Of a stretch of DNA of 64,000 nt, positions 39,999 through 59,147 are shown piece by piece. The position numbers and the translations under genes are program-made. The notes beneath the pieces are model-generated. The model did not search any database and was not told the DNA's origin. It saw only the letters and a program-made list of their open reading frames with translations. Source of the stretch: Candidatus Bathyarchaeota archaeon (GTDB lineage: Archaea; Thermoproteota; Bathyarchaeia; Bathyarchaeales; Bathycorpusculaceae); NCBI GenBank assembly GCA_013388905.1, contig JACAEI010000010.1, positions 1 through 64,000 of the forward strand, read 5' to 3'. How positions within the stretch are numbered: the stretch's first letter is position 1; every line of letters starts with the position of its first letter.

Positions 39999-42719
39999 CT
40001 ACTGATACTCTTCTTCCTCTTCCCTCGTGGAAACGCTAATGATTTTGAGCTTAACCAGGATAACAACTGCAATGGCGATTATGATTATTGGGATTAAAAT
40101 CAGTAGAATTATTGTCAGCGGCCATCCGCCTTCTTGTTCTGATGTTATTTTTGGGATCACTATTGTTTCTGTTTGATTTCCTCCGTTTATATATCCATTT
40201 TTTGTTACGTTGGCTGTTATTGTTACAAATATTTGCGCTGTTGTGTAAGGAGCTCTAAAAACAAAATTGCAAGCACCTGAAGCGTCTGTGGTTTTGGTTG
40301 TAACATTGAAGTTGCCAGCGCTAGACCATATTGTAACGTTCGCACCAACAACAGGCGTTGCATCTTCTTTACACATCACTTGAACTATAACATTCGCTAA
40401 TTCTTCTGATTTGACGTAAGGAGCGTCTATTGTGACGATGAACGTTCTTGGATTAATAGTTACTTCAAGTTGGTTTTGCGCTGTCGCGTATCCCGTTTTT
40501 GTAGCGATTGCTGTAATGATGATTTTGGATTGTGTGCTTACTGGAGGAGCGGTGAAAGTGAACGTTATGTTACCATATGCGTCCGTCAATCCGCTAGCTG
40601 TTGAAAAGTTTCCACTTTCTGCTGTTACTGTGACGTTTGCTTGTGCTATTGGAATTGTTTCATATTTTACACTTACAGTTATGTTCATTTTTGCCTCTGA
40701 AATTGTCGCGTTTGGATCCGCTACTATCTGAACATTGAGGATTTTGGGTTCTATGACTATTGTTGTCTGTCCTGTTCCATCCATATAGCCGCTTTTCGTT
40801 GCTGTTGCGATCATAATGGCGTATAATAAAGTGGTTGTTTGTGGCGCTGTGAAGATGACTGAAAAAGCACCATTTGAATCAGTAACTCCTGTTTCAGAGG
40901 ATAGACTTCCAAGACTAGATGATAACGTAACGCTTGCATTAACAACTGGTTCATCATTACTTTTGACATGGACTAAAACCTGCGACGTTCCTTCTGACCT
41001 AACAACATTTGGGTTAGCATCTATTTGAACTGAAAGGAAAGGCGAAACCTCTAAATATTGATGGGCTGAACCATCGGCATATCCGCTTTTAGAGACTCTT
41101 GCAACAATCCTAATGTATGTTTTCTCAGCTATGTCTGGTGCCGTAAATGTTGTAGCTAAATAGCCCGTTGCGTTGGTAAGACCAGAAGATTGTGAAAAGT
41201 TTCCACCAATAACTGAAAACATTGTTATCGTTGCATTTTCTACCGGGTTGACGCTGTCTGTTACATGAACTGTTACTGAAACATTATCTTTTTCGTGAAC
41301 AGTTGAATCGCTTAGGTAGGCGCTCGCTTGTAGTGGTGTAAGATTTTGAACATTTATTGTTGCAGATACAACGTCGCTTGTGGTTCCGTAATCGTCTACA
41401 ACTGTCAAGTTTGCAGAGTAGGTTCCAGTTGTGGAATATTTATGTGTGAAAATCGATAATGTTGTCCAGCCACTGCTATAGCCGTCTCCAAAATTGAAAA
41501 GATATCTATCAACACGTCCGTCAGCATCGAATGATCCAGTGGCAAAAAACATGACTTCTCCATTAGGTGGAATGAGACTCTTGTCGCTTAAAAGAACCGC
41601 TGTTGGGCGAGTGTTGATATAACCAATGGATTTAAATAAAAAGAATATAAAGTCAAGATTAACGCCGTCGCCACCAACAGGGTTGCCTTGTCCAGTTGGG
41701 TTCAATTGATCATGGTATGGTCCACTTTTGTCACCCCAATAATTATATTCCGCATTCACGGTTGCATTAAGCTCTACATTCATGCCCATTTCATTGGCAT
41801 ATATGTCGTTGTAGTTGGCTGTGTGACTTCCTCTGTCGTATAAGACCCCGATGGCATTGTACGAGATTGAGTTGTTTGTGATGTATGTGCTTATGGGAGT
41901 CGAGATGTAGATTCCATTTGTATTCGATGAAATGTTGTTATATGAAATGGTTGTTTGAGAGTGGCTTTCAGCGTCGATCTGTATTCCGTTTTCTTTGTTT
42001 GCTGATATCTTGTTCCGATTTATGTAAATTCTTGAAGTCTGGTTTCCTGTTAATAGAATGCCATTGCCATTTGCCATTATAATGTTCCATTGTACAGTTA
42101 CCGGACCATCTCCAGTTATGGATATGCCATTTCCTTTATTCTCCATTATTATGCTGTTTTGAATGGTTACCTCACTGTTGTCTGCGATAATTCCATTCTG
42201 TGAACATAGGCTTACTGTTGTGTTTTGGATGTTTAATATGGCATTTAATGCAGTGATTCCATTTTGCGAAAGACTTATTGAACTATTTATGATGTCTACG
42301 TTTCCGTTTTCTACGAGAATTCCGTTTGTTGCGTATTTTACAAAGCAATTTATTAGCGTGGACTTTTGCATTCCGTTGAATAATATCCCATTCCAGTCTC
42401 CATCTTGTGGCAACATTTTATTCGAAGTAAACGTAATGGATTTGCTTGTTCCGTTGGCAAACAATACTCCCAAGACTTTCAGCGAGAATTCTCCAAACCT
42501 CACTTCAACACTTGGTTCTATTGTTAATGTGGCATTTGGATAAACTGTAATGTCTTTTGAAACCACAAATGGGCTGTCAACAAGTGTCCAAATAGTATCT
42601 TTCGTTATTGGGTCTTCAACATAAGTTGCTTTTACAGTTGGAAATATTCTGCTTGCAGAACTAAAAACACTAAAAATTATGCTCAACAGTGTAACAAATA
42701 CGTAAATTTGCTTCTTCAT
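39999..42719 (-). CDS. 906-residue surface protein: beta-helix, PKD and repeated Ig-like domains
   Basis: Order: signal peptide (QIYVFVTLLSIIFSVFSSA); parallel beta-helix (about 60-350) with NosD/PbH1-type repeats such as NGISITGDGPVTVQWNIIMANGNG; PKD domain (about 385-470, FNFGDGYSSGWTTLSIFTHKYSTTGTYSANLTVVDDYG); four tandem Ig-like/invasin-type domains of roughly 95-105 residues, each with a G-TDA-G-hydrophobic-F-TAP signature; a C-terminal helix (LTIILLILIPIIIIAIAVVILVKL) and an acidic tail EEEEEY. It is likely to be exposed on the cell surface in adhesion or polysaccharide contact. It lies just upstream of the pilus operon, 65 bases from its ATPase gene. Confidence 0.87.
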   Translation of the reverse strand: MKKQIYVFVTLLSIIFSVFSSASRIFPTVKATYVEDPITKDTIWTLVDSPFVVSKDITVYPNATLTIEPSVEVRFGEFSLKVLGVLFANGTSKSITFTSNKMLPQDGDWNGILFNGMQKSTLINCFVKYATNGILVENGNVDIINSSISLSQNGITALNAILNIQNTTVSLCSQNGIIADNSEVTIQNSIIMENKGNGISITGDGPVTVQWNIIMANGNGILLTGNQTSRIYINRNKISANKENGIQIDAESHSQTTISYNNISSNTNGIYISTPISTYITNNSISYNAIGVLYDRGSHTANYNDIYANEMGMNVELNATVNAEYNYWGDKSGPYHDQLNPTGQGNPVGGDGVNLDFIFFLFKSIGYINTRPTAVLLSDKSLIPPNGEVMFFATGSFDADGRVDRYLFNFGDGYSSGWTTLSIFTHKYSTTGTYSANLTVVDDYGTTSDVVSATINVQNLTPLQASAYLSDSTVHEKDNVSVTVHVTDSVNPVENATITMFSVIGGNFSQSSGLTNATGYLATTFTAPDIAEKTYIRIVARVSKSGYADGSAHQYLEVSPFLSVQIDANPNVVRSEGTSQVLVHVKSNDEPVVNASVTLSSSLGSLSSETGVTDSNGAFSVIFTAPQTTTLLYAIMIATATKSGYMDGTGQTTIVIEPKILNVQIVADPNATISEAKMNITVSVKYETIPIAQANVTVTAESGNFSTASGLTDAYGNITFTFTAPPVSTQSKIIITAIATKTGYATAQNQLEVTINPRTFIVTIDAPYVKSEELANVIVQVMCKEDATPVVGANVTIWSSAGNFNVTTKTTDASGACNFVFRAPYTTAQIFVTITANVTKNGYINGGNQTETIVIPKITSEQEGGWPLTIILLILIPIIIIAIAVVILVKLKIISVSTREEEEEYQ

Positions 42720-44638: not shown

Positions 44639-44733
44639 GCACTCGTATTTCAATTCTGAAACTGAATGATATTCAATTTTTGAAAGAAGATTGATAAACA
44701 ACGCGTCTCGCACTCGCTAATGAGGAGGCTTCA

Positions 44734-47700
44734 GTGGAAAGCGCCAAGAAACCGCTCGTATCGATAATTGTGCCAGCATACAACTCACAGAAAACAATCC
44801 AACAATGCCTACAATCAATTAAAAACCAGACTTACAAGAATATAGAAACAATTGTGGTGGATCGCCACAGCAAAGACAAAACAGCACAAATCGCAAAAAA
44901 CTTCAAAACAAAACTGTTGTATGTAACTGAAGAGCGAAGCACAGCCAAAAACTATGCAGCAAAAGAGGCAAAAGGCGATTTTCTACTTTTCATAGATTCA
45001 GATATGACACTTGCCCCTGAAACAGTCGATGAATGTGTAAAGAAAAGTTTAGAAACAAATGCGGATGCGCTTGTCATACCACTAAAAAGCATAGGTCATA
45101 GTCTACTAAGTGAATGCCGAAAAAAGGAGAGAGAATCGCTTTCAAGTTTAAGCGAATTTATGGAAGCCCCACGTTTCTTTAAACGAGCAGCATTTTTGAG
45201 AAATGGAGGATATGACGAAAAAATAGTGTGCGGAGAAGATTTCGACTTAACTAAGCGATTTAAAAAAAAAGGCTACAAAATTGAGAAAATAATCTCTCAG
45301 TTATATCACTTCGAAGATGGGGCTTCTCTGCGCAATATTTTATCAAAAGCTTACTATTATGGCAAGGCTTTACCCGCATTAATAAAGAAAGACCCACGAG
45401 AAACAGTGGAAAGATATGCCAATATACGATTCGCATCAATAAAAACCACTGGAGCTACATTCAAAAATGCAAAGCTCCTTCTAAGTTTCGTTCTCATGAA
45501 AACTTTTGAATACATTGCTTACTTTATTGGAATCCTTGTTCAACTAATTCGTCAGATAACAAGCAATAAATTCTTCCAAAATCTGAGAATTAAACTCTCA
45601 GTTTACAAGTTCGCCATTATCAATTTTGCAATTCTGACCCTAGTCTCATTCACCATATTCCGCAACTTCCTCCTATCTGCAGAGTGGCCTGGAGGCGGTG
45701 ATGTCATAGGCTTTGTTTCCCGAGCCTACATATATGGTAAAGATTTTAGATGGCTTTACATGTGGCGCCAATATTCTTTTGGTTTTGTTGAAGGCATAAA
45801 TTTCATGGACTTCTTTTTGATGCTAATCTATTGGATTTTTAGAGATCCTTCTTGGACAGTGAAAATTTTCATGTTTCTAGTTTACTTGACCGCTGCTTTT
45901 TCTATGTATTTTTTTGCGTATAAATATGCACATAACCATATTGCTGCCCTTTCAGCTTCTCTGGTTTATATTTTGAATCAGTGGCTTTTTTCGCAATTGA
46001 CTGAAGCACATGTGGACATAATTTACAGCTACGCTCTAGCTCCACTAATTTTCCTTTTGCTTGACAATGTGTTAAAAACTGGCAAATCTAGAGACATTAT
46101 ACTTTTAAGTTTAGGTTTAAGCTTGTTTGTAACAAGTTTTCATCCAGAGTGTATAGTAATCTACGGCATCTTCTTCCTCCTTTTTACTTTCCTTTTCCTA
46201 ATTTTCCCATCAAAAAACGCGAAGTTTAAAACGCTCCTCTACCGTGTAGTCAAAGTATTTGTGCCATCGGCTGTGCTTGTTTTTCTACTATCCGCCTTTT
46301 TCCTACTCCCGTTTCTATTCAATATTCGTGCACCCTACTTTCATTCGTCTTACGTTTACCCGCTCGAAGATTCTTTTGGAACAAGCTATCAAAACATAAC
46401 AGACGCCTTCACTTTGCGAGCAGTAGAAAAATGGGGTTATGTTAACCTTGTAGACGTGTATTCAGGCTTGGGGTTGCCTGATTTTCCAGTTCACACCTTT
46501 CTATTCTTGCTTTTTCTTTTGGCATATTCTATGCTATTGATTCGCAGAGACCGCTACACAATTTTCTTTGCTCTATCCGCACTGGTTTCCATTTTTCTGG
46601 CAAAAGGCGCCTATTCACCTTTTGGACAATTTTTTGTTTGGGCATGGTTCAATGTTCCCCATTTTGCAATTTTCCGGGCAGCAAACAGATGGGTTATGAT
46701 GACGATTTTCTCCCATGCTTTCTTCACCTCGCTTTTAGTGTCGTATCTGGCAAGTTATGTAGAAGGAAAAGCTTCTCTACGGGCAGTAGAGCAATACTTA
46801 ACAGTGAAAGTGAAAGTGAAAGACAAAAATTATTCAAAAAACAAGAAACTCGTGGTTTCTGTTGATTTGCTGAATAATTTTTTCAAAAAAATTCACAAAG
46901 TTATTTACGCACTAAGTATATTTTTGTTGGCATTCATTTTTTTAAGTGGTTTTCTTTCTTGCTTCTTCTTTTTTTCTCAAGGCTTACAAGTTTACACTCC
47001 CCCCGAAGAAGATTTGTCTGTGTATAAGTGGCTTGCTTCTCAATCAGGTGATTACAAAGTAATCTCGGTGTGTCGTAGTCCGTCTGAGTGGTATGACCCG
47101 TTAGGTGGCGAATCTGACTTTGCGTCTAGTGGGATGCTTACTTCGTTAGGTTGGAGCCATGACATAGGTTTTGACAGCTCGTTTATTCATGACAAACCAT
47201 TGCTTCAGAATGGTGGATGGGATTTCAAGGCAAGACAGTTTGTCGACTATTTGAGATTTAGATTGGCAAGAGGGCATTTAACTGACAACTTGTTAAAGAT
47301 GCTGGGATCTTTCGCCTACTATTATATTGTCATTCCTACATATACAACAGAACAGACTCGCAGATTTTTCCTAAACCAGAAAGGATATCAAATTGCATAC
47401 AATCAGTCAACAATTGTTCTTCAAAATGACTATTTTACACAACGGATATTCGCTGCAAACCAGTCAATGTTCGTGGTTGGTGGTTTTGAATCTTTTGATG
47501 CATTATGCAAAATTGAAAGTCTTAACATGAATAAAACCATTTTATATTATGCGCCGGAATCTATTGATTATGGCAGTTTGTTGTATGAAAAAGCCAATAA
47601 ATCCCAGATGTTTTGCTTTGCCAACTCGGACATTTTAGATTTGGCGATGATTTCTTTGGGCAAAAACGCGGTTGTGATTCATGCAGGAGATTATGGAGCT

Positions 47701-49293
47701 TCAAGTTTAAACATGACAAAATATTGGGTCAAGTGGCCTTCTTGGCGAATCATAGGCGCATCTGTTTTAGGCGGAGAAGTATTAACCACCTTAGGAAAAA
47801 ACAAGATTGATATACCTTTTGAACTGGATTCTGACGGATTTTATAATATATTTCTGAGAATAGGCTTTGCACCCTCACGTGGAAACTTGCGCCTATTTGT
47901 TGATAGTAAAATTGTTCACGATTTTCGCTCGTATTATCCTCTAATGTCTAAACTTGAATGGGTGAACATAACAAGCTTAAACCTTGCCAAAGGTAAACAT
48001 CTAATTACCCTTGAAAACGACGGGACAGGCTACAACGACGTAGACGCAATTGCTATCGTTAAACCATCATATCTCGAAGCGCGAATTAACGAAATAGTAA
48101 CTAATCTTCAAGATTTTCAAGGTAGACTCCTCTATTTGTTAGAAGCAGAAAACACTTTTCTAAACGCCTCTTCAAGCAGCAACTGGTATTGGACGATAAG
48201 TCCCTACAATGGATACATAATTCGCTCAGAGAGCTTAGGTTTAAATGTCGCCTTTCTTGCAAGTGTAAATGCAACTTCTGAAACTGAATTTATGGAAGCA
48301 CAACGAGCAATAGATGGCAATTTAGGCACAAGATGGGCTTCTGAAAAATATGTTCTTCCTCAATGGCTGGAATTAACGTGGAATACAACACAATCGCTTC
48401 GCGGCATCCGTATAGCTTTTGAAAATGCTTACGCGACTGACTATGCAATACAAACATGGAATGGGACTAGTTGGATAAACCAGACAATTGTAACTGGAAA
48501 CAATGAACTGGAAAGAGTACACGATTTCACTGGAATAGTTGAAACCAATAAGCTTCGAATCTATATAACGGGTTTTTCCATTTTTGACCGAGTAAGCATC
48601 TGGGAACTTGAGACATATTCCACTAAAATTGACTTAGCGTCATCAACGTTAACGATTCCGAGAACAGATGACTATATGTTAGCTGCAAGGATCGCCACAA
48701 GTCCAAAACACGGCAAACTCTATTTTAAAATTAATGACCGCATTCATTTTATTGATTGCAATAGCTCTGTAAGCCAATTCGAATGGCACGAAATAGGCAC
48801 GTTCAGTCTTAACGCAGGAAACATAACCTTAGGCGTAGGCGGCGAAGGTTTTGTTGAATTAGATGAGTTGCTGCTTTATTCGCTTAAAGAAGGAGAAGAC
48901 CATCTCTCTCTGGATGATTTGTTTAATTCTCCAAGCCCAAAGGTTTCAGTTAACTATGAAAAATTAAATCCTTGCACTTTTAAAGTTCATATTAACACAA
49001 GTGAACCTTTCACATTGGTTTTTACTGAAACTTATGATGCTCTCTGGAAAGCTTTTATTGATGGAGAAGCATTGACCCCTACTCCAGCTTACTCGCTAGT
49101 TAACAGTTTTTACATAAATAAAACTGGCCAATTTACAGTAACTATTTACTTTACTGGTCAAACTAATGCGGATATAGGTTTGAAAGTTGCTCTAACTAGT
49201 TTTATCTTGCTAGTCATAGCCTTGCCGCTTGTTTGCTTTAATCGTCTAAATTTCATCAAGCAGAAGATTCCACGAATGAGGAAATCAGCTTGA
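44734..49293 (+). CDS. 1519-residue membrane glycosyltransferase fusion: GT2, multi-helix membrane core and CBM/discoidin ectodomain
   Basis: Residues 8-240 are a GT2 domain (VSIIVPAYNSQKTIQQCLQS, DSDM as the DxD, GGYDEKIVCGEDFDLTKRF). From 290 to about 750 there are roughly a dozen hydrophobic segments, with GGDVIGFVSRAYIYG near the first, resembling GT-C-type transferases. The ectodomain (about 760-1480) contains a CBM6/35-like unit (SDGFYNIFLRIGFAPSRGNLRLF), a discoidin/F5-8C unit (AQRAIDGNLGTRWASEK, PQWLELTW), a second CBM-like unit (TDDYMLAARIATSPKHGKLYF) and the phrase LVFTETYDALWKAFIDGEA typical of such membrane proteins; one last helix ends it. GTG 44734 follows GAGGAGG. Lipid-linked sugar transfer at the outer face is likely. 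Confidence 0.85.
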   Translation: MESAKKPLVSIIVPAYNSQKTIQQCLQSIKNQTYKNIETIVVDRHSKDKTAQIAKNFKTKLLYVTEERSTAKNYAAKEAKGDFLLFIDSDMTLAPETVDECVKKSLETNADALVIPLKSIGHSLLSECRKKERESLSSLSEFMEAPRFFKRAAFLRNGGYDEKIVCGEDFDLTKRFKKKGYKIEKIISQLYHFEDGASLRNILSKAYYYGKALPALIKKDPRETVERYANIRFASIKTTGATFKNAKLLLSFVLMKTFEYIAYFIGILVQLIRQITSNKFFQNLRIKLSVYKFAIINFAILTLVSFTIFRNFLLSAEWPGGGDVIGFVSRAYIYGKDFRWLYMWRQYSFGFVEGINFMDFFLMLIYWIFRDPSWTVKIFMFLVYLTAAFSMYFFAYKYAHNHIAALSASLVYILNQWLFSQLTEAHVDIIYSYALAPLIFLLLDNVLKTGKSRDIILLSLGLSLFVTSFHPECIVIYGIFFLLFTFLFLIFPSKNAKFKTLLYRVVKVFVPSAVLVFLLSAFFLLPFLFNIRAPYFHSSYVYPLEDSFGTSYQNITDAFTLRAVEKWGYVNLVDVYSGLGLPDFPVHTFLFLLFLLAYSMLLIRRDRYTIFFALSALVSIFLAKGAYSPFGQFFVWAWFNVPHFAIFRAANRWVMMTIFSHAFFTSLLVSYLASYVEGKASLRAVEQYLTVKVKVKDKNYSKNKKLVVSVDLLNNFFKKIHKVIYALSIFLLAFIFLSGFLSCFFFFSQGLQVYTPPEEDLSVYKWLASQSGDYKVISVCRSPSEWYDPLGGESDFASSGMLTSLGWSHDIGFDSSFIHDKPLLQNGGWDFKARQFVDYLRFRLARGHLTDNLLKMLGSFAYYYIVIPTYTTEQTRRFFLNQKGYQIAYNQSTIVLQNDYFTQRIFAANQSMFVVGGFESFDALCKIESLNMNKTILYYAPESIDYGSLLYEKANKSQMFCFANSDILDLAMISLGKNAVVIHAGDYGASSLNMTKYWVKWPSWRIIGASVLGGEVLTTLGKNKIDIPFELDSDGFYNIFLRIGFAPSRGNLRLFVDSKIVHDFRSYYPLMSKLEWVNITSLNLAKGKHLITLENDGTGYNDVDAIAIVKPSYLEARINEIVTNLQDFQGRLLYLLEAENTFLNASSSSNWYWTISPYNGYIIRSESLGLNVAFLASVNATSETEFMEAQRAIDGNLGTRWASEKYVLPQWLELTWNTTQSLRGIRIAFENAYATDYAIQTWNGTSWINQTIVTGNNELERVHDFTGIVETNKLRIYITGFSIFDRVSIWELETYSTKIDLASSTLTIPRTDDYMLAARIATSPKHGKLYFKINDRIHFIDCNSSVSQFEWHEIGTFSLNAGNITLGVGGEGFVELDELLLYSLKEGEDHLSLDDLFNSPSPKVSVNYEKLNPCTFKVHINTSEPFTLVFTETYDALWKAFIDGEALTPTPAYSLVNSFYINKTGQFTVTIYFTGQTNADIGLKVALTSFILLVIALPLVCFNRLNFIKQKIPRMRKSA

Positions 49294-49304
49294 AAAAGGA
49301 TAAT

Positions 49305-50138
49305 ATGGAAAAATATTGGGATTTTGTAGCTTTAGAGGCTAAAGGCTCAGCGGCTGCTTTACGTTTGGAAAAATGGAGAAAAGTTGCAAGAAATTGGCTA
49401 GCTGATTATGCTGATAAACGAGCTAAGGATTTTATTTTCAAGGTCTTGAACGAAGTTGTTAGGCTAAGCGGAGCTGTAAAGATTCTCGACATCGGCTGTG
49501 GTCCTGGAAAATGGTCAATTATGTTCGCCAAGAAATACTCCTTTGTTAAAGGTGTCGATATAAGCCCAAACATGATTCGTCTCGCCGAAGAAAATGCCCA
49601 GAGAGAGAATTTGGAAAACATAAATTTTCAAGTAATGGATGTTTCTAATCTCGAGATTCCAGACGAAACATACGACTTTGTTAACTGCGTAACAGTTCTA
49701 CAACATATTTTCGATGACGCTCAATGGAGAAGCGCTGTTCATGAAATAGCCAGGGTCACAAAAAGAAGCGGCTATATTCTGCTTTTTGAGATAGCGCCAA
49801 ATTTTGCAATAAAGAAGCGCACACCAAATCTTTCTATAAGAACCATGCGCCAATACATTGACGAATTTAGAAAAGCTGGGGCAAATCTTGTATATTGGCG
49901 CGCTGTAGACTTGTCTCTTCCAATAACCTATTTTGGATTAAAAGATTATGCGGCTTCTTTCAACAAGAAAGTTTACTATTTCATTTCTGAACGGCAGACG
50001 CTCTTGGCAGGTTTTCTATCATTTTTGTCTTCGGTTGCGACGCTGATTGCAAAAGTTGTTGATTACAAGTTGGCTGAGACTCCGCTAAGCTTTCTCTCTT
50101 TTGGCAGAATTCTGCTTTTTCAGAAATCTAACAGATGA
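49305..50138 (+). CDS. SAM-dependent class I methyltransferase
   Basis: 277 residues from ATG 49305, preceded by AAAAGGA; TTG 49290 in the same frame overlaps the end of the big glycosyltransferase gene (TTGA). Motif I is ILDIGCGPGKWSIMFAK, followed by GVDISPNMIRLAEENA and the post-motif FVNCVTVLQHIFDD; RSGYILLFEIAP follows. The C-terminal part (KLAETPLSFLSFGRILLF) is partly hydrophobic. The position suggests methylation of a sugar or lipid in envelope synthesis (inference). Confidence 0.88.
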   Translation: MEKYWDFVALEAKGSAAALRLEKWRKVARNWLADYADKRAKDFIFKVLNEVVRLSGAVKILDIGCGPGKWSIMFAKKYSFVKGVDISPNMIRLAEENAQRENLENINFQVMDVSNLEIPDETYDFVNCVTVLQHIFDDAQWRSAVHEIARVTKRSGYILLFEIAPNFAIKKRTPNLSIRTMRQYIDEFRKAGANLVYWRAVDLSLPITYFGLKDYAASFNKKVYYFISERQTLLAGFLSFLSSVATLIAKVVDYKLAETPLSFLSFGRILLFQKSNR

Positions 50139-50228: not shown

Positions 50229-50984
50229 ATGAGGTGTTTCATAGTTCTGCCATGTTTTAACGAAGAAAAAAATGTTAAACTCCTCATACACTCAATAGAC
50301 CACGTGTTAAAAAACAAAATTCCCTACAAAATAATCGCAGTTAACGATGGAAGCCGCGACCTCACATGCAAAGTTCTCAAAGAGCTTTCAGCAGATTATC
50401 CTATCCGTGTAGTTGAACATTACATTAACATGGGTTTAGGCGCTGCTTTAAGAAGCGGTTTACTTGCAGCTACCGAAGAAGTTTTTGATGATGACGTTGT
50501 TATAACGATGGATTCAGATAACACGCACGACCCTAAGCACATTTTAGGAATGTTAGCCGCTTCGAAAAAAGCTGACATCGTTGTGGGTTCCCGTTACGTG
50601 GAAGGTGGGGCTCAGTTAAATGTGCCCTCGCATCGTGTAGTCCTAAGCAGATTCATCAATACTCTTGTTGGAAAACTGTTTAAATTACCCGTCAAGGACA
50701 CTACGAGTGGCTTCAGATGTTTTAGGGCTATATTGCTGAAGCGTCTATGTGCCCTGCTTAAAGGAAGCATTATCGATTCAAAAGGTTTTGAATCTTCGTT
50801 GGAATTGCTGTTTAAAGCGGTTCATTTAGGCGGTTTTCCTGTTGAAATTCCGATTCTTCTTGACTATGGAAAAAAAGAAGGCAAAAGCAAACTACGCATT
50901 TTTTCAACTATTCTCAACTATTTGGTTCTTCTGTTCAAGTTCAGACATCTGTTGCAGAAGAGTAATTCGCGAAATCTTTGTTAG
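50229..50984 (+). CDS. GT2 glycosyltransferase, Dpm1-like (dolichol-phosphate sugar synthase type)
   Basis: 251 residues. FIVLPCFNEEKNVKLLIHS (nucleotide site), AVNDGSRDLT, GLGAALRSGLL and MDSDNTHDP (DxD) give the GT-A fold of Dpm1/GT2. KDTTSGFRCFRA and DSKGFESSLELLFKA are typical of DPMS proteins that place a sugar on dolichyl phosphate. No C-terminal membrane helix, so a soluble form. It ends with a four-base overlap against the convergent subtilase gene. Confidence 0.88.
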   Translation: MRCFIVLPCFNEEKNVKLLIHSIDHVLKNKIPYKIIAVNDGSRDLTCKVLKELSADYPIRVVEHYINMGLGAALRSGLLAATEEVFDDDVVITMDSDNTHDPKHILGMLAASKKADIVVGSRYVEGGAQLNVPSHRVVLSRFINTLVGKLFKLPVKDTTSGFRCFRAILLKRLCALLKGSIIDSKGFESSLELLFKAVHLGGFPVEIPILLDYGKKEGKSKLRIFSTILNYLVLLFKFRHLLQKSNSRNLC

Positions 50985-52887
50985 GACGTTGCATATTCCA
51001 AGTGAACCTCGCTGCTCTCTGGGATTCCGTTCTGTTCTACGTCGTCTACCCAGTGAAACACATAACATTTTTCTGAATAGCTATTGAAATTCTTTGAAAC
51101 TATTTCCTTGAAATATATGCCGCTGGCCCATGTTCCTTTCCACGTAAAGCCATACATTATAACAATCAAGTTGGTCTTATCCGTTAAAACTTCTATCACA
51201 AACAAATCTTCATGCCCGGAATTTACTGAAGCTCTATTTAATGATGCGACAACCACATTGTTTTGAGTTATAAACGAGTAATGTGTATCATTTGCTGCAA
51301 ATTTCACAGAAGTAACTCCCACGGCTTCATAGTATCCAACAGTCTTTTGTGGGCATGGACCACCAAAAAAGACCACTGTGGCATTGTTTATCACTGACAT
51401 GTTTAGTTCTCCTGATTCAAGTATCGCATTATTGTTTGATGTGAAACCTTGCCTTTGAGGATTGGTTGTTAGCCCATAAACGACTCCTTCTGCCACGGCA
51501 TCATAAGCTGTTTCTGCCGCTGCAGTGCCTTCCTTTGGATTCTTATAGAAAAAGTAAACACTGTTCGAAGGAGCTTTGAGGACTTGACTACCGATAAGAG
51601 CGATTGACTGGCTGACTGCTTTACGAGCGTTTACTCTTCCATAACCATAAAAACATCGAATCCTACAGCACCCAAATCGTCTGCCGTGTATAAGAGTTGA
51701 CTGCGAACTTGCTCGTTGCTCATGGTAGGATACTGGCTTAACACAAGAGCTGCGACGCCCGCAACATGCGGACATGCCATTGAGGTTCCACTCATTGACA
51801 AGTAATAGTCCCATAAGTATGTCGAATATATGCTTGTGCCAGGCGCAGCTAAGTCCACCCAATCACCATAAGTGGTAAACGATGCGGGATTGTCGTTCTC
51901 ATTTGTCGCTGTAACTGCTACAACTTCGTCATAAGCCGCTGGATAATGCCTACTATTTGAAGCGCTGTTACCGGCTGCGGCAATCACTAAAGCGCCAATG
52001 TTTGTGGCGTATTTGATGGCGACATGTATCAGTTGACTTTCTTGGCTGCTGCCCCAACTACAACTTATTATGCGTGCTCCCTGATTCGCAGCGTGTATTA
52101 TTGCATTTGCAAGATCGTCACTATAGCCTATTCCATTATCCGCAAAGCCTTTTTCTGCAATAACTCTGACTTGTGCTAATCCAGCTATGCCCTTGCTATT
52201 GTTAAGCGTAGCAGCGATTATGCCTGCACAGTGGGTCCCATGTCCATGGTCGTCAGTGGGGTCTGAATCATCATTAACCCAGTCATATCCCAAAGCAACA
52301 TAGTTTGCCGCCAAATCTGAGTGATTATATATACCAGTATCAACAACAGCCACAAGAACTGAATAATCGCCTTTTTGCGCATCCCAGGCAATATTAGCCT
52401 CAATTTTTGCTGGACCCCACTGGTTAATCCACTCTGGATCGTTTACAGTGGCGTCTATGTAGAATTTCCAATTCGGCTCTACAAAATCTACGTTCTCGTT
52501 AAGCAGAATTGCTTTGAGAAATTTTGAAACTTTATTGGTTGGAATACTTACCACAAAACCTCGAATTGAGTCATTTAAAGAAATTTGGTTCGTTATAAAA
52601 CCTTTCTCTTTTGTGATTAATGAAGTAAATTCCAAGGGTTTCTCTCCGTGAAAGCCTACCACTAGTTCTACATGACTTCCGTTGTATGCAAACTCGAATG
52701 ATGACTCAGAAAGTTCACCAGAATTGTTCACGTTGAAAGGCCATTGTTTAAACCATAAGTGTTCTTCGCTTATCCCAAAAGATGATAGATTCAACAAATA
52801 GATCTCCTCCATCATTAGCGTTATCATTGCTAGAAGAAATGAGAAAATGATAGCTTTGGAGGAGGGGTTTTTCATTGACGTTCCCAC
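50981..52887 (-). pseudogene. Frameshifted exported subtilase (S8 serine protease) with archaeal C-terminal domain
   Basis: The first frame (52887-51631, 418 residues) has an N-terminal hydrophobic segment (AIIFSFLLAMITLM), a propeptide and the complete S8 triad: D183 (VVDTGIYNHSDL), H216 (DDHGHGTHCAG), N307 (AAAGNSAS) and S369 (SMSGTSMACPHVAG). It stops early after GFDVF. The other frame (about 51650-50981) continues FYGYGRVNARKAV, the normal end of the S8 domain, then about 200 residues including FGGPCPQKTVGYYE and MYGFTWKGTWASGIYFKE. The break is at A5 on the plus strand (51649-51653; T5 in the coding strand): one missing base, or a -1 slip on UUU. The restored length is about 630 residues. 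Confidence 0.8.
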
Positions 52888-53144: not shown

Positions 53145-56100
53145 ATGAAAAAAACAAGTTCGCTGATTAACAAAAAAACAATACTAACAATCACTTTGGC
53201 AATAGTTCTAACAGTTAGCATGTATGCGTCTTTGAATATTCTCAGCAACTTCGGTGCAACAGCAGCGTTATACTCTGAAACTGACTATAAAAGAATTAAC
53301 GGAGTGTTAGGAAATGACAGCTACATACTTTATCCTTACGAGGAAAAAAGCTCTGTTGTTGGCTTTTCTAAATACGGTGAGCTAATGAACCCCTATGTTC
53401 CAGCAGGACTAAACTACAGCGGACAAATTGATCCTTTTGCTAACACCTACGTAGCTAGAAAAGATTGGAACGAAGGCTGGGTAATAAACGTTACATACGT
53501 CCAAAATGGCCAATATCAGAACGTCTGGGCTTTCGCCCTCTATAGCGACACTCTGGTCAGCGGCACACCTCCAGATCTTGATTGGCAACATGTCTCGGGT
53601 GCTCTCAGCAGTCCTTATTGTGGAAGAAAAACAAACGCTTATGCAAGAAGCTACCCTATAGAGATAATTTATGACGGTCCAAGAAAAGCAGTCTATCGAC
53701 TCAAGACCGTAATATCTACAAACACGACACCGACCACTTTCGAAGATGACAAGATATTAGAACTTACGTTCCATGTTATCTATGAAAAAGACAAGAAATA
53801 TGTCCTTTGGATAAAGGACGTCAAAAGAGTCGACATAGGCAAAGGCATCGGAACTATGCAGGTTGAATTTAGCGAAAGAGGACAATGGGACATGGAGAGG
53901 TCTTCACATCCACGGGCTTATGCTTACTGGTACACCAATCGCACTACAGACTATGATAAACACATATTCTACAATGGCTCTTCCACTTATAGCCAAGCTC
54001 GCTATAATTATGAAGGTAATGCCCAAGTAGCTGGCTACGACGTCTGCCAAATTATAAGTAGCGGGCTTCCGTATGTAGGATGGGCTGCTTTCTGGCCAAA
54101 TACCACTGTTAATTATGTTGAGGCTTACGATGTTACGACAGTAGAAATGCGGTTGACTACCCTTTCAACTTGTAATGATAGATACACCGCCAGTCTATGG
54201 CCCAGCGATTACAAGGTAGCTTCACTTAGGAGATATGAACCATTGAATACGCCTACCGTATATCCACGTGGTGAAGGTCGATGGAGCAATGAACCAATGG
54301 TTTTTGTTAATGATCTCCTTAAAACAATGGGGACTCATTACAATTGGGTCTACAATAGCACGAGGGGAAGATGGGGCGTAGAATTCTTTTCCGCATACAA
54401 CCCTGGTTCTTCAGATGTCATTCGTATTGTTTACAAGTCTAAACGATATCTGCAGAACGACATGAGTCCATCACCACATGAGCCGGGCACGCCATACGTG
54501 ATTGGTGAATGGTCCTTTGATTTGACATGGGCTAACATAACACGATCAACAAATCAATTCCGTTGCGTTACGGCTTATGGTGTAACAGATTATCATGATG
54601 CTGATGATGCAGACAGACAAGGTTACAATAGACTTGACAGAGAAATTGTATTTCAGCTCGACGAAGTCTTTAATCCATGGGATCTCAACCAAGCAGTACA
54701 TAAACAAGAAAATGATTGGGTTTATAAGACAACTTTGACAAGTTCAGCCAACTATGTCACATTATCTAGCGGTCTAGGCGATAGAATATGGCAGGACAAA
54801 ACCACAGGCACATGGTATACATACAAATTGCAGACTGGAGACAACGCCACTGCTACATGGGTAAACGCCTTTGAAGATGGAGACAGCTACACCGCTCATA
54901 GCAAGAATTGGGCGCTAAAGCTATACGCCTATAATGATAGTGATGCGAACACTGATTATGCTCGTATAAGGATTACTCCTGAAGGCTTTGGACAAAACGG
55001 CACTTACATGTTCGGCAACCTTACAGAAGTAAGCTTCTGGTACAAGAAAATAGCAGGAAACAGTAGCTATTATGGGCCACACCTTTTCATAAAGTTGTCT
55101 AATGGCTCAGCAACCAGTTGGGTAAACATTCAAATGTACAATAACCCAGTGCATTCTCCATCTGGATGGGTGAAAGTAGACCTTGCAAACATTGACACTT
55201 ACACTGATCAATCTTCAGCAGACGAGGCTTTCTGGTATGATTCAGACAGTTGGACAAAGAGTGCCAGTGGACCAATGGCTGGTGTCCCTTCAGGCGCTGG
55301 AACTGCGAAGCATTCGTTTGACTTTTATAGAAACAAGTTGGCAAGCTACTACGTTACTGACATAGTAGTGGAACTCGGTTATAATATTCCTGCTGGACAA
55401 GCGAAAACCTATTTGATTGACGACATCGATGTTGGCTATCTGACTGGAGCAGGCTGCATACGCCACGAACGTGTATATAACATGGAAGAAGACAAACTTA
55501 TACCATCTGACTGGGACAAATATTGCAGTTTTAGCGAAAAAGTCCTTGTAAACGGAACTTTATGGAACAGATATAGCTATCACATCATTGATCCATCATA
55601 TTCTGCCACAGCCTATCGTCCATACTACACGATAAACTTTGAAATAGGCAAAATATGGTTCTGGCATTATGTAGAAGGAACCGGATACACCAACTGGACT
55701 CTCTCAGCAGGAACCACAATAAAAGTTCTCTACTCAACAATTGAGTTTTGCACTAATGGACGCTATGAATGGAACGTTGTAGGCACTCCTTCCGCCGCTG
55801 TAGACTCTGCGGGCGCATCGATGGTTTCATCTTCATTTGAAGAATGGAAGAACATAGAAGTCTACAAAGCAGCATTAGAAATAAAGGACTCATCATGGGG
55901 ACCATACGTTCCATACCTGATAAGAGAGCAAGGAGTAGCCAATAGATCAAGATCACAGTATCGCGATGTCACAAATAGACTACACTTAAAAGACGATTGG
56001 TGTTCAACTCTGCCAATTTCACGCAGTAACATTATCGTTGTAGGTGGACCTGCTGCAAACGGGTTAGCTGAATACTTTAATGACTACACAGACGCGTTTC

Positions 56101-56585
56101 TAGTTAAGTCAGATGTATCAACAAGCGACTTGACTGGCAACGGAATCTATGGACCAGGATGCTGGAACAAGACCCGTGCTTACTATGGTGGGGCTTCTGG
56201 CGCAGGAGGATACGCAATAATATCCACCTACAAAGACCTAAACGGCACAATTGGATTCCTAGTCTGGGGCTACAACGGAGATGACACATACTACGCAAGT
56301 TATGCACTAAGACACGGATTGATTGCCTACATACAGTATTTGCAGCCTGGGGTTACAACGCTAATTCTCAAAATAACCTATTCAACACACCCGCCAACTA
56401 TAACCATCGTTGAATGCTTGGGAGTATTCACAGAATGCACAGGCTTCGGTCAATACGCATATCTAGGCGAAGGCGGTGCAACATACGTAAGAACAACATA
56501 TGTCCTGCCACTTGCAAGAAGGCTCTTCATTGAACACAAACTGATGTCATTCACTTGGCCAACATACATCCACGCTGACCCATAA
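53145..56585 (+). CDS. Large exported surface protein with jelly-roll/carbohydrate-binding-like domains (1146 residues)
   Basis: Signal peptide MKKTSSLINKKTILTITLAI (N-terminus) then a Tyr/Trp/Asn/Thr-rich extracellular protein with many sequons. Residues about 620-770 form a jelly-roll-like domain (FEDGDSYTAHSKNWALKLYAY, TEVSFWYKKIAGN, DDIDVGYLTGAG). No C-terminal membrane helix is visible: it ends IHADP, unlike many archaeal surface proteins, so it may be held by another route or released. Ribosome binding is by AGAGGAATG. It could be an S-layer component or a secreted carbohydrate-active protein; no catalytic motif identified. Confidence 0.75.
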   Translation: MKKTSSLINKKTILTITLAIVLTVSMYASLNILSNFGATAALYSETDYKRINGVLGNDSYILYPYEEKSSVVGFSKYGELMNPYVPAGLNYSGQIDPFANTYVARKDWNEGWVINVTYVQNGQYQNVWAFALYSDTLVSGTPPDLDWQHVSGALSSPYCGRKTNAYARSYPIEIIYDGPRKAVYRLKTVISTNTTPTTFEDDKILELTFHVIYEKDKKYVLWIKDVKRVDIGKGIGTMQVEFSERGQWDMERSSHPRAYAYWYTNRTTDYDKHIFYNGSSTYSQARYNYEGNAQVAGYDVCQIISSGLPYVGWAAFWPNTTVNYVEAYDVTTVEMRLTTLSTCNDRYTASLWPSDYKVASLRRYEPLNTPTVYPRGEGRWSNEPMVFVNDLLKTMGTHYNWVYNSTRGRWGVEFFSAYNPGSSDVIRIVYKSKRYLQNDMSPSPHEPGTPYVIGEWSFDLTWANITRSTNQFRCVTAYGVTDYHDADDADRQGYNRLDREIVFQLDEVFNPWDLNQAVHKQENDWVYKTTLTSSANYVTLSSGLGDRIWQDKTTGTWYTYKLQTGDNATATWVNAFEDGDSYTAHSKNWALKLYAYNDSDANTDYARIRITPEGFGQNGTYMFGNLTEVSFWYKKIAGNSSYYGPHLFIKLSNGSATSWVNIQMYNNPVHSPSGWVKVDLANIDTYTDQSSADEAFWYDSDSWTKSASGPMAGVPSGAGTAKHSFDFYRNKLASYYVTDIVVELGYNIPAGQAKTYLIDDIDVGYLTGAGCIRHERVYNMEEDKLIPSDWDKYCSFSEKVLVNGTLWNRYSYHIIDPSYSATAYRPYYTINFEIGKIWFWHYVEGTGYTNWTLSAGTTIKVLYSTIEFCTNGRYEWNVVGTPSAAVDSAGASMVSSSFEEWKNIEVYKAALEIKDSSWGPYVPYLIREQGVANRSRSQYRDVTNRLHLKDDWCSTLPISRSNIIVVGGPAANGLAEYFNDYTDAFLVKSDVSTSDLTGNGIYGPGCWNKTRAYYGGASGAGGYAIISTYKDLNGTIGFLVWGYNGDDTYYASYALRHGLIAYIQYLQPGVTTLILKITYSTHPPTITIVECLGVFTECTGFGQYAYLGEGGATYVRTTYVLPLARRLFIEHKLMSFTWPTYIHADP

Positions 56586-56638: not shown

Positions 56639-57937
56639 CTAGTCCACATTTTTATTAAGAACTTCAGAAGCAAATTTCGCTATTGCTTCCAAATCTGTTG
56701 CTGCAACTTTTTTCCATTCAAACTTTTTCGCATAATCTCTAGAAATTTCGCAGAGATTTCCATTGGTAGTGTTTAGCAATTCCAAAACTTCGCAAGTTAT
56801 TCTGTCAATATCTCCAACTGGTACAAGAAATACATTTTTGCAAGAGCCAAAAGTTTCTCTTAGAGCTGGAATATCGTAAGCTACAACAGGTAAGCCGCAA
56901 GCTAATGCTTCAGCCACTGCTATTCCCCAACCTTCAAAAAGGCTTGGGAAGATGAAGACTTTGCTCGATTTTAACAAACTATACAGCTTAATGTCACTGC
57001 ATCGCCCATAGATCAGAATGTTGTCTTCTAATTCGTCTTTAGCAATCATTTTCTTCAATGAATCGAGTTCTAATCCGCTTCCAATAATTAGAAGTTTAAC
57101 GTTTTCCTTATTTTTAACAACTTTTTTCCATGCCTCTACTAAATTGAAGATTCCTTTTTCTTTCGAGATTCTGCCTGCAAAGACTCCATCAAAAATCTTT
57201 TCATATCTATAAGGTTTTATTCCGCTAATGAAATCGAAATTAATGGCGTTGCCGCTGACAAAAATTTTACTTTTAGAGATGCCGTTATCTCTGAGGGCTT
57301 TTGCGGTAAAGTTTGAAACTGCAACTATCGCATTGGTTTTCTTTAAGAGAGAAAGTGTAATGTAAAATGCTAGGGTTTTGGCAAGTGAGACACTTCTAGT
57401 GTAGTCTATGTTTCGATAACTGCAGTAAAGAGAATCCTTCGCTCCAATTTTCGCTGAGGGTATGTCAATGTGATGAACAATTATGCCTACAGGTTTGTGG
57501 GAAATTAAACCAACAAAGTAGCCTAATATGAGATTCGGCAAAGTATTATTCGTAACAAAAATTACATGAGGGTTCTCAATTTGAAGAATGCTTAAGCTTT
57601 TAAAAAGTGCTCTGAAAATCCAAAATCCCCACTCAAGATACGTGCTCAGCCATCCTTTCCCATGAAAACTCCAAGGAAGCGAATATTTTTTACACTTATA
57701 TTTTGGTGCGTCTAGAAGACTTGGAGAAGATTCCAAAACAGCTATCTTTACGTTGTCTTGCTCGCAGAAAACCTTGAGAGTTTCAACGAATCTTTTTTCG
57801 GCACCGCCCATTGCTGTTACATGAGTTGACGGATGAAAGAAGAGTGCGAAGATTCTGAGAGGAAAAGATGTCCTTGTTTCTTGTTTTTCGGTTGTTTCGT
57901 AACATATTGTTTTCTGTGTGTTTTCAACAATTTTCAT
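56639..57937 (-). CDS. GT4 family glycosyltransferase
   Basis: 432 residues, GT-B fold. The N-terminal half starts with GGAEKRFVETLKVF and the C-terminal half has the nucleotide-sugar site GRISKEKGIFNLVEAW, LLIIGSGLELDSLKKM, SDIKLYSLLKSSKVFIFPSLFEGWGIAVAEALACGLPVVAYDIPALRET (EX7E motif). An N-terminal cluster of Lys/Thr/Glu before RIFALFFHP is longer than usual. It is adjacent to another GT4 gene (seven-base gap), so they probably build the same glycan. Confidence 0.9.
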   Translation of the reverse strand: MKIVENTQKTICYETTEKQETRTSFPLRIFALFFHPSTHVTAMGGAEKRFVETLKVFCEQDNVKIAVLESSPSLLDAPKYKCKKYSLPWSFHGKGWLSTYLEWGFWIFRALFKSLSILQIENPHVIFVTNNTLPNLILGYFVGLISHKPVGIIVHHIDIPSAKIGAKDSLYCSYRNIDYTRSVSLAKTLAFYITLSLLKKTNAIVAVSNFTAKALRDNGISKSKIFVSGNAINFDFISGIKPYRYEKIFDGVFAGRISKEKGIFNLVEAWKKVVKNKENVKLLIIGSGLELDSLKKMIAKDELEDNILIYGRCSDIKLYSLLKSSKVFIFPSLFEGWGIAVAEALACGLPVVAYDIPALRETFGSCKNVFLVPVGDIDRITCEVLELLNTTNGNLCEISRDYAKKFEWKKVAATDLEAIAKFASEVLNKNVD

Positions 57938-57944
57938 TCCCGCA

Positions 57945-59147
57945 TCATCTTATTCTTTGTATGTTTTCTTCCAAAATTTTCAAATGTTTTTCGCACGAGA
58001 AGTTTTCTTCAACAAACCTTCTTGTTTTCAAGGAGACATTTTTTTCCTTCAAGTCAACAGCCTTTAGAATTTTTTCAGCAAAGTCCTTCATATGGTATGG
58101 ATTGGCTCTGAAGCCTGTTTCTCCATCAATAACGGTTTCACATGGACCTCCCCCATCATTCCAGACAACAGAGGGTGTTCCACATGCCATCGCTTCAACT
58201 GGGCCTAATCCAAAATCTTCTCGCGGAACTGAGTAGACATACACATCCGCAGCGTTGTAAAGCCTCACAAGTTCTTTTTGAGATTGAAACCCTAAAAATT
58301 TCACATTTTTCTTTATTTCCAATTTTTTAGCAATTTTCAAAAGTTTCCGTATGTATTTGTTGTTTTCTTTTGAAATCTCGCCTGTTATGGCTAAAGTTGC
58401 TGATGGGATTTCCTTTACAATGTGGCTCATTATTTCCAGAAGCCATTCCCAGTGCTTCACAGCCACAATTCTTCCGGTTGAGAGAATTAGGGGCCATCCA
58501 AAATCTTTGCGTGATTCTTTAGAGATTTTCTGTTCTAGAATTCTAAATGTTTCTATGTCGACTGGTGGATAACAAACTTTTGCAGTTATTCCGTAAATGG
58601 CTTGTATGCGTTTAGCTGTGAAGTAACTGTTTGCGAGAACAACATCTGAATTTACAACACTATAATAATCCATCTCTTTTAAAAAAGGACCAGCAACTTT
58701 GCTCAGTCTAAAAATTACTTCACGAACATCATTAAATCTCCATAGTGCTCTCTCTTTACTATTTAGGTAGAGAAATCTTGGAGGCGAATGAATGTAACTC
58801 AGATACTTTTTGCCTCTAAATTTTTTATTTAAATAACCAATCCATGGGGCAGGACCATAGCCATGACAGATTAAAACGTCTTCTTCACTAAAAGCTTGTA
58901 AAACTAGGGGAGCCAAAGGCACAGATAATATAATTCGTATTGCTGGGCTATTTGGAACAAAAGAAGTGAAAAAGCTTTTTGTGTAGCAGTGAGGGTTGCT
59001 TGATTCCTTGCGTAGATTTTTATCCACATAAGCGAAAAAACATTCAGCGTTGTAGCCTTTTTGGTGGAACAGTTCGACTTGTTTTAGAATTACTCTTTCG
59101 GCTCCTCCTAACTCTTTTAGGTGACTATAAAGTATTGCGATTTTCAA
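57945..59147 (-). CDS. GT4 family glycosyltransferase (mannosyltransferase-like)
   Basis: 400 residues. KIAILYSHLKELGGAERVILKQ, LICHGYGPAPWIGYLNKKFRGKKYLSYIHSPPRFLY, RIVAVKHWEWLLEIMSHI, LVRLYNAADVYVYSVPREDFGLGPVEAMACGTPSVVWNDGGGPCETVIDGETGFRA (EX7E site) give a classic GT4. Family members often transfer mannose from GDP-mannose. TTG 59147 has AAAAGGATG upstream. It is the first of the two-gene minus-strand pair. Confidence 0.9.
   Translation of the reverse strand: MKIAILYSHLKELGGAERVILKQVELFHQKGYNAECFFAYVDKNLRKESSNPHCYTKSFFTSFVPNSPAIRIILSVPLAPLVLQAFSEEDVLICHGYGPAPWIGYLNKKFRGKKYLSYIHSPPRFLYLNSKERALWRFNDVREVIFRLSKVAGPFLKEMDYYSVVNSDVVLANSYFTAKRIQAIYGITAKVCYPPVDIETFRILEQKISKESRKDFGWPLILSTGRIVAVKHWEWLLEIMSHIVKEIPSATLAITGEISKENNKYIRKLLKIAKKLEIKKNVKFLGFQSQKELVRLYNAADVYVYSVPREDFGLGPVEAMACGTPSVVWNDGGGPCETVIDGETGFRANPYHMKDFAEKILKAVDLKEKNVSLKTRRFVEENFSCEKHLKILEENIQRIR

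Follow-up and report, generated by a model that had tools for sequence, protein, structure and literature searches.

The window analyzed here, a stretch of 64,000 nucleotides, comes from a Bathyarchaeia MAG of 1.50 Mb in 48 contigs. It contains an uninterrupted reading frame, free of internal stops, whose 1519-residue product runs from a cytoplasmic-type GT2 glycosyltransferase domain through a multi-helix membrane core to a large, beta-rich ectodomain (Table 1). The gene order around it is the same in G000, G024, and G035: a metallo-beta-lactamase-fold gene, the fusion, a methyltransferase, a DPM1-like GT2, a surface protein, and GT4 glycosyltransferases. Methyltransferases also lie near the GT-C gene at several loci where the two halves are unfused.

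Two further genes of the window deserve mention. A single-base frameshift close to position 51640 divides a subtilase gene (50981-52887, minus strand), so that 'DDLGAVGFDVF' in one frame carries on as 'CFYGYGRVNARKAV' in the other; this may be a sequencing error or a real pseudogene. Homologues of the 50981-51862 reading frame, the C-terminal part of the split subtilase, adjoin GT-C genes in three other genomes (L032 9390-11135, L033 2828-3634, and L074 3078-4823). A beta-helix/PKD surface protein gene (39999-42719, minus strand) is conserved beside the locus, and its product carries 24 N-sequons versus 15.9 ± 3.5 in shuffled sequences.

Table 1. Features of the fusion gene and its neighbors, in window coordinates
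Feature	Position	Strand	Basis or remark
GAGGAGG ribosome-binding-like site	44722..44728	+	5 nt before GTG start
Fused GT2/AftD-like GT-C gene	44734..49293	+	fused orthologues in G024, G035
GT2 (GT-A) catalytic domain, residues 7-225	44752..45408	+	D43, D88-S-D90, E168-D169 invariant
Long helix 246-276, end of GT2 unit	45469..45561	+	approximate end of stand-alone GT2 genes
Fusion junction, residues 277-291, basic	45562..45606	+	inside least conserved stretch
GT-C membrane core (predicted), residues 292-749, 11 TM helices	45607..46980	+	AlphaFold model, Foldseek
D323 in first outer loop (W-P-x-G-x-D), candidate catalytic acid/base	45700..45702	+	conservation
Outer alpha/beta domain (predicted), residues 755-995	46996..47718	+	AlphaFold model
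First CBM35/Golvesin-like beta-sandwich (putative), residues 1017-1110	47782..48063	+	weak at family level
CBM32/F5_8 type C module, residues 1170-1297	48241..48624	+	R1200, E1230 invariant
Second CBM6/35-like beta-sandwich (probable), residues 1310-1390	48661..48903	+	model, profile matches
C-terminal beta-sandwich (predicted), residues 1405-1475	48946..49158	+	AlphaFold model
Last TM helix (predicted), residues 1478-1502, basic cytoplasmic tail	49165..49239	+	AlphaFold model
SAM-dependent methyltransferase	49290..50138	+	overlaps fusion-gene end; syntenic in G024, G035
DPM1-like polyprenyl-phosphate-sugar synthase (GT2)	50229..50984	+	full-length 5mlz match
Secreted surface protein, 1146 aa, 20 N-sequons	53145..56585	+	weak S_layer_C match
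GT4 glycosyltransferase	56639..57937	-	syntenic
GT4 glycosyltransferase	57945..59147	-	syntenic

The initial annotation had described a single protein of this length while allowing that a frameshift might have joined two genes, and had pointed to related archaea as the place to look for the same fusion. Both genes do exist stand-alone, side by side, in relatives, and the contig comes from a MAG, which is what an artefact of frameshift or misassembly would call for. However, the fusion recurs in the same single frame, with the gene order of the window, in G024 (69% identity, 1521 aa) and G035 (59% identity, 1538 aa), so that the full-length form is found in three genera including the host. In G045, from a different family, a reading frame spans the junction before the contig ends, and a shortened copy in G034 spans it as well. 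Elsewhere in Bathyarchaeia the halves are encoded separately: in G014 two GT2 genes stand in tandem with a GT-C gene, which shares 16 bp with the closer of them, and in G049 ~1.8 kb separates the GT2 gene from the GT-C gene. Conserved fused orthologues in independent assemblies, together with separate halves elsewhere, rule out a frameshift or chimera and leave a joining artefact a vanishingly small probability. Thus, the 1519-residue reading frame is a genuine fusion.

Orthologues or near relatives of the GT-C half, some of them partial or truncated, occur in 17 of the 257 genomes of the class (E below 1e-40). In the GT2 tree the fused GT2s fall into one cluster (84/86 support), joined by one contig-edge sequence. 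The GT-C tree has little resolution (fused group 49/85); a single origin of the fusion is consistent with these trees and no more. dN/dS on the fusion is read only qualitatively because synonymous sites are saturated.

The N-terminal half has the GT-A fold and the DxD and ED motifs that define CAZy family GT2. Pfam places PF00535 on residues 10-119 (E 1.5e-26) and the fold reaches to about residue 225; the nucleotide-binding D43 and D88-S-D90 and the catalytic ED motif E168-D169 are intact, being invariant in an alignment of 15 homologues. The GT2 domain called initially is therefore upheld, and the position of the junction follows from stand-alone GT2 homologues, which end at about residue 276. 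The best solved full-domain relative of the GT2 profile is chondroitin polymerase (3e-39), and Foldseek matches of the domain include TarP, TarS, RmlT, WrtF, and PcManGT; all of these are hydroxyl-acting GT2s. By these matches, the fused GT2 is closest to GT2s acting on sugar hydroxyls.

It is useful to contrast this assignment with one in which one chain both produces and uses the donor, the fused GT2 synthesizing a polyprenyl-phosphate sugar that the GT-C half receives directly. GT-C enzymes require such donors and DPM synthases are themselves GT2s (PMC4973528), and donor channeling would fit a GT2–GT-C fusion. Yet the ED motif is present, the relatives matched over the full length use hydroxyls of sugars or polyols as acceptors, and the match to Pyrococcus DPM synthase (5mlz) is confined to the nucleotide-binding half, residues 9-110. 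By comparison, the separate DPM1-like neighbor matches 5mlz over its whole length (E 3e-33), and the locus thereby contains the polyprenyl-phosphate-sugar synthase of a three-component extracytoplasmic glycosylation system. We consider it unlikely that the fused GT2 is the donor synthase.

For the second half, an AlphaFold model of residues 292-1491, based on 12 sequences (mean pLDDT 76.7, pTM 0.68), has 12 transmembrane helices and a beta-rich ectodomain. Against the PDB, Foldseek ranks three AftD structures first (6w98, 6wbx, and 6wby; E 9e-21 to 4e-19), aligned end to end over about 1425 columns (1428 quoted for the best), and the next match stands at 5e-8. Differing or uncertain domain orientations keep the overall TM-score to AftD at a modest 0.44. 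The GT-C superfamily is defined by a polytopic core whose first outer loop bears an acidic residue; here the 12 helices and D323 correspond to these features. D323 is kept in all close homologues and in most of the distant ones, and N415, H426, P437, and R648 likewise persist in most of the distant homologues. The multi-helix, GT-C-like core first proposed from the sequence is thus borne out, and in the model the membrane core and ectodomain together fold as a GT-C enzyme of AftD-type architecture. In mycobacteria, AftD helps to build the cell wall. An initial search of the PDB also gave tubulin matches (E 0.08-0.9), which we attribute to chance.

The AftD sequence profile, GT-C_AftD (PF11847), gave zero matches across the whole genome; in the distant paralogue L034 it reaches a sub-threshold E of 0.0037. 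The L034 locus (G041:C37) holds two GT2 genes and two adjacent AftD-like GT-C genes of 1033 and 903 aa, one of which is that sub-threshold match. As to topology, helix parity and positive charges suggest that both termini and the 681-710 loop are cytoplasmic. Helix 246-276 could be a further transmembrane helix, which would invert this arrangement.

A GT-C half that had lost catalysis might act for the GT2 as a scaffold in the membrane or as an anchor that binds glycan; the fold alone is compatible with this, and domain orientation is uncertain. However, conservation of D323 and of further residues in the outer loops and core extends to homologues outside the fusion clade. In addition, G039, G058, G046, and others have the GT-C but no GT2 close to it, so that serving a GT2 is not its role. 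Loss of catalysis is, in our judgment, very improbable. Where the halves are unfused, seven loci have a separate GT2 gene, from the subfamily of the fused one, near an AftD-like GT-C, and a GT4 takes the place directly upstream of the GT-C in G058, G046, and G147.

The ectodomain had been described as two CBM6/35-like modules and one discoidin-like module. The CBM32 fold of the discoidin-like module is secure (F5_F8_type_C E 2e-11; TM-score 0.89 to CBM32 structure 4zz5). It resembles the chitosan-binding DD1 and DD2 of a Paenibacillus chitosanase (4ZXE, 4ZZ5; TM-score 0.88-0.89, ~30% identity), which sit on a hydrolase, whereas the present module sits on a transferase. E1183, R1200, and E1230 align with E20, R37, and E67 of the DD2 chain, and lysine takes the position of DD2 Y42, which may mean a different ligand. 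With the site residues partly kept, carbohydrate binding by this module is putative. The second CBM6/35-like module is probable: it is a beta-sandwich in the model, with a PDB profile hit to 8zvk (1e-4) and sub-threshold CBM_6 (E 0.003) and CBM_35 (0.018) matches in the corresponding region of orthologue L029. The first is the least certain of the three, a structural call from its beta-rich character in both models with weak family hints (Golvesin_C 1.6e-6 in orthologue L073; DUF5077 0.017 in L031).

These modules had been thought remarkable as external carbohydrate-binding domains on a GT2 enzyme. The GT-C half carries the same modules without a GT2 in eight other genomes, and they therefore belong to the GT-C half. 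CBM-bearing GT-C enzymes are documented, namely, AftD, EmbA/B/C, and GT136, and some bind the acceptor glycan (PMC11127046). What is unusual is the fusion of GT2 to GT-C, rather than a GT2 with external CBMs.

The secreted surface protein encoded at the locus has 20 sequons where shuffled sequences have 10.7 ± 2.8. Its family is present in 11 of the 12 genomes with a full GT-C versus 16 of 151 without (Fisher p 4e-9, phylogeny ignored); in G058, G039, and G046 the two genes lie on different contigs. This sequon-rich partner, and the STT3 structures among the Foldseek matches (E about 2e-5), could be taken to mean that the GT-C half is a protein glycosyltransferase, AglB/STT3- or PMT-like, acting directly on the surface protein. 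But AftD is ahead of STT3 by fifteen orders of magnitude, the genome has an STT3 gene of its own (the only one, on contig C24), and the CBMs indicate a glycan acceptor, which makes direct protein glycosylation doubtful. The STT3 profile is absent among the Pfam matches of the fusion protein.

The window's surface protein is 74% identical to that of G058 (C20:67467-70907), which belongs to a different family, whereas its identity to that of same-family G024 is just 43%, and the GT-C of G058 is 41% identical; this pattern suggests lateral transfer of the surface-protein gene. In G001 (L045, 5873-6587), 70 residues of the fusion remain beside a truncated GT4, and in G034 (L037, 4862-6995), 388 residues remain beside another truncated GT4. 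Both genomes are outside the set with the surface protein. The locus appears to have been lost from them by different deletions, which may themselves be MAG misassemblies.

Taken together, these observations favor, at a probability of roughly 60%, a two-faced surface-glycan assembly enzyme of Bathyarchaeia, whose topology, activities, donor supply, and acceptor we infer. Using a nucleotide-sugar donor, the cytoplasmic GT2 domain would glycosylate a hydroxyl group, and its acceptor would most likely be a glycan precursor linked to polyprenyl. Outside the membrane, the AftD-type GT-C half would take a sugar from a polyprenyl-phosphate donor, supplied by the neighboring DPM1-like synthase, and add it to a glycan gripped by the CBM-bearing ectodomain. 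The acceptor would probably be the glycan of the surface (S-layer-like) glycoprotein of the same locus. In effect, the fusion would hold together two steps that other genomes split between neighboring genes. The initial idea that the protein makes a glycan while binding the growing polymer was a fair functional guess. That consecutive glycan-building steps on both membrane faces are physically coupled in one chain, with the ectodomain holding the growing polymer, is a tentative proposition to which we give rather low odds.

The fusion may be relevant in several ways. First, it offers a Rosetta-stone link, pairing a cytoplasmic glycosyltransferase with its outer partner and tying both to a particular surface protein. 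Second, in a lineage without cultured genetics, surface glycosylation becomes testable through one expressed protein. Finally, an AftD architecture in archaea, unseen by the AftD sequence profile, suggests that large CBM-bearing GT-C enzymes are older or more widespread than annotated.

Among known systems, the three-component systems of the GT136 type combine a polyprenyl-phosphate-sugar synthase, a flippase, and a GT-C with a CBM (PMC11127046). The present locus shares with them a DPM-like synthase adjoining a CBM-bearing GT-C. It differs in that a genome search detected no GtrA-type flippase, in the GT2–GT-C fusion, and in being an archaeal surface-protein locus rather than an O-antigen locus. 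AglB/STT3 has the GT-C superfamily fold in common with the fusion protein and is encoded by a separate gene in the same genome. The hydroxyl-acting GT2s K4CP, TarP, TarS, RmlT, and WrtF share the GT-A fold, and the profile covers their catalytic domain; unlike the present protein, they have no GT-C membrane enzyme attached. Like the present protein, AftD (6W98), an arabinofuranosyltransferase, has a GT-C core and, after it, a long ectodomain rich in beta structure that bears several CBM-like modules. However, it is mycobacterial rather than archaeal and has no GT2 domain, and its profile has no detectable match to the present protein. Each half is thus of a known kind; new to us are an archaeal AftD-type GT-C and its end-to-end fusion to a cytoplasmic GT2, adjoining a surface-protein gene.
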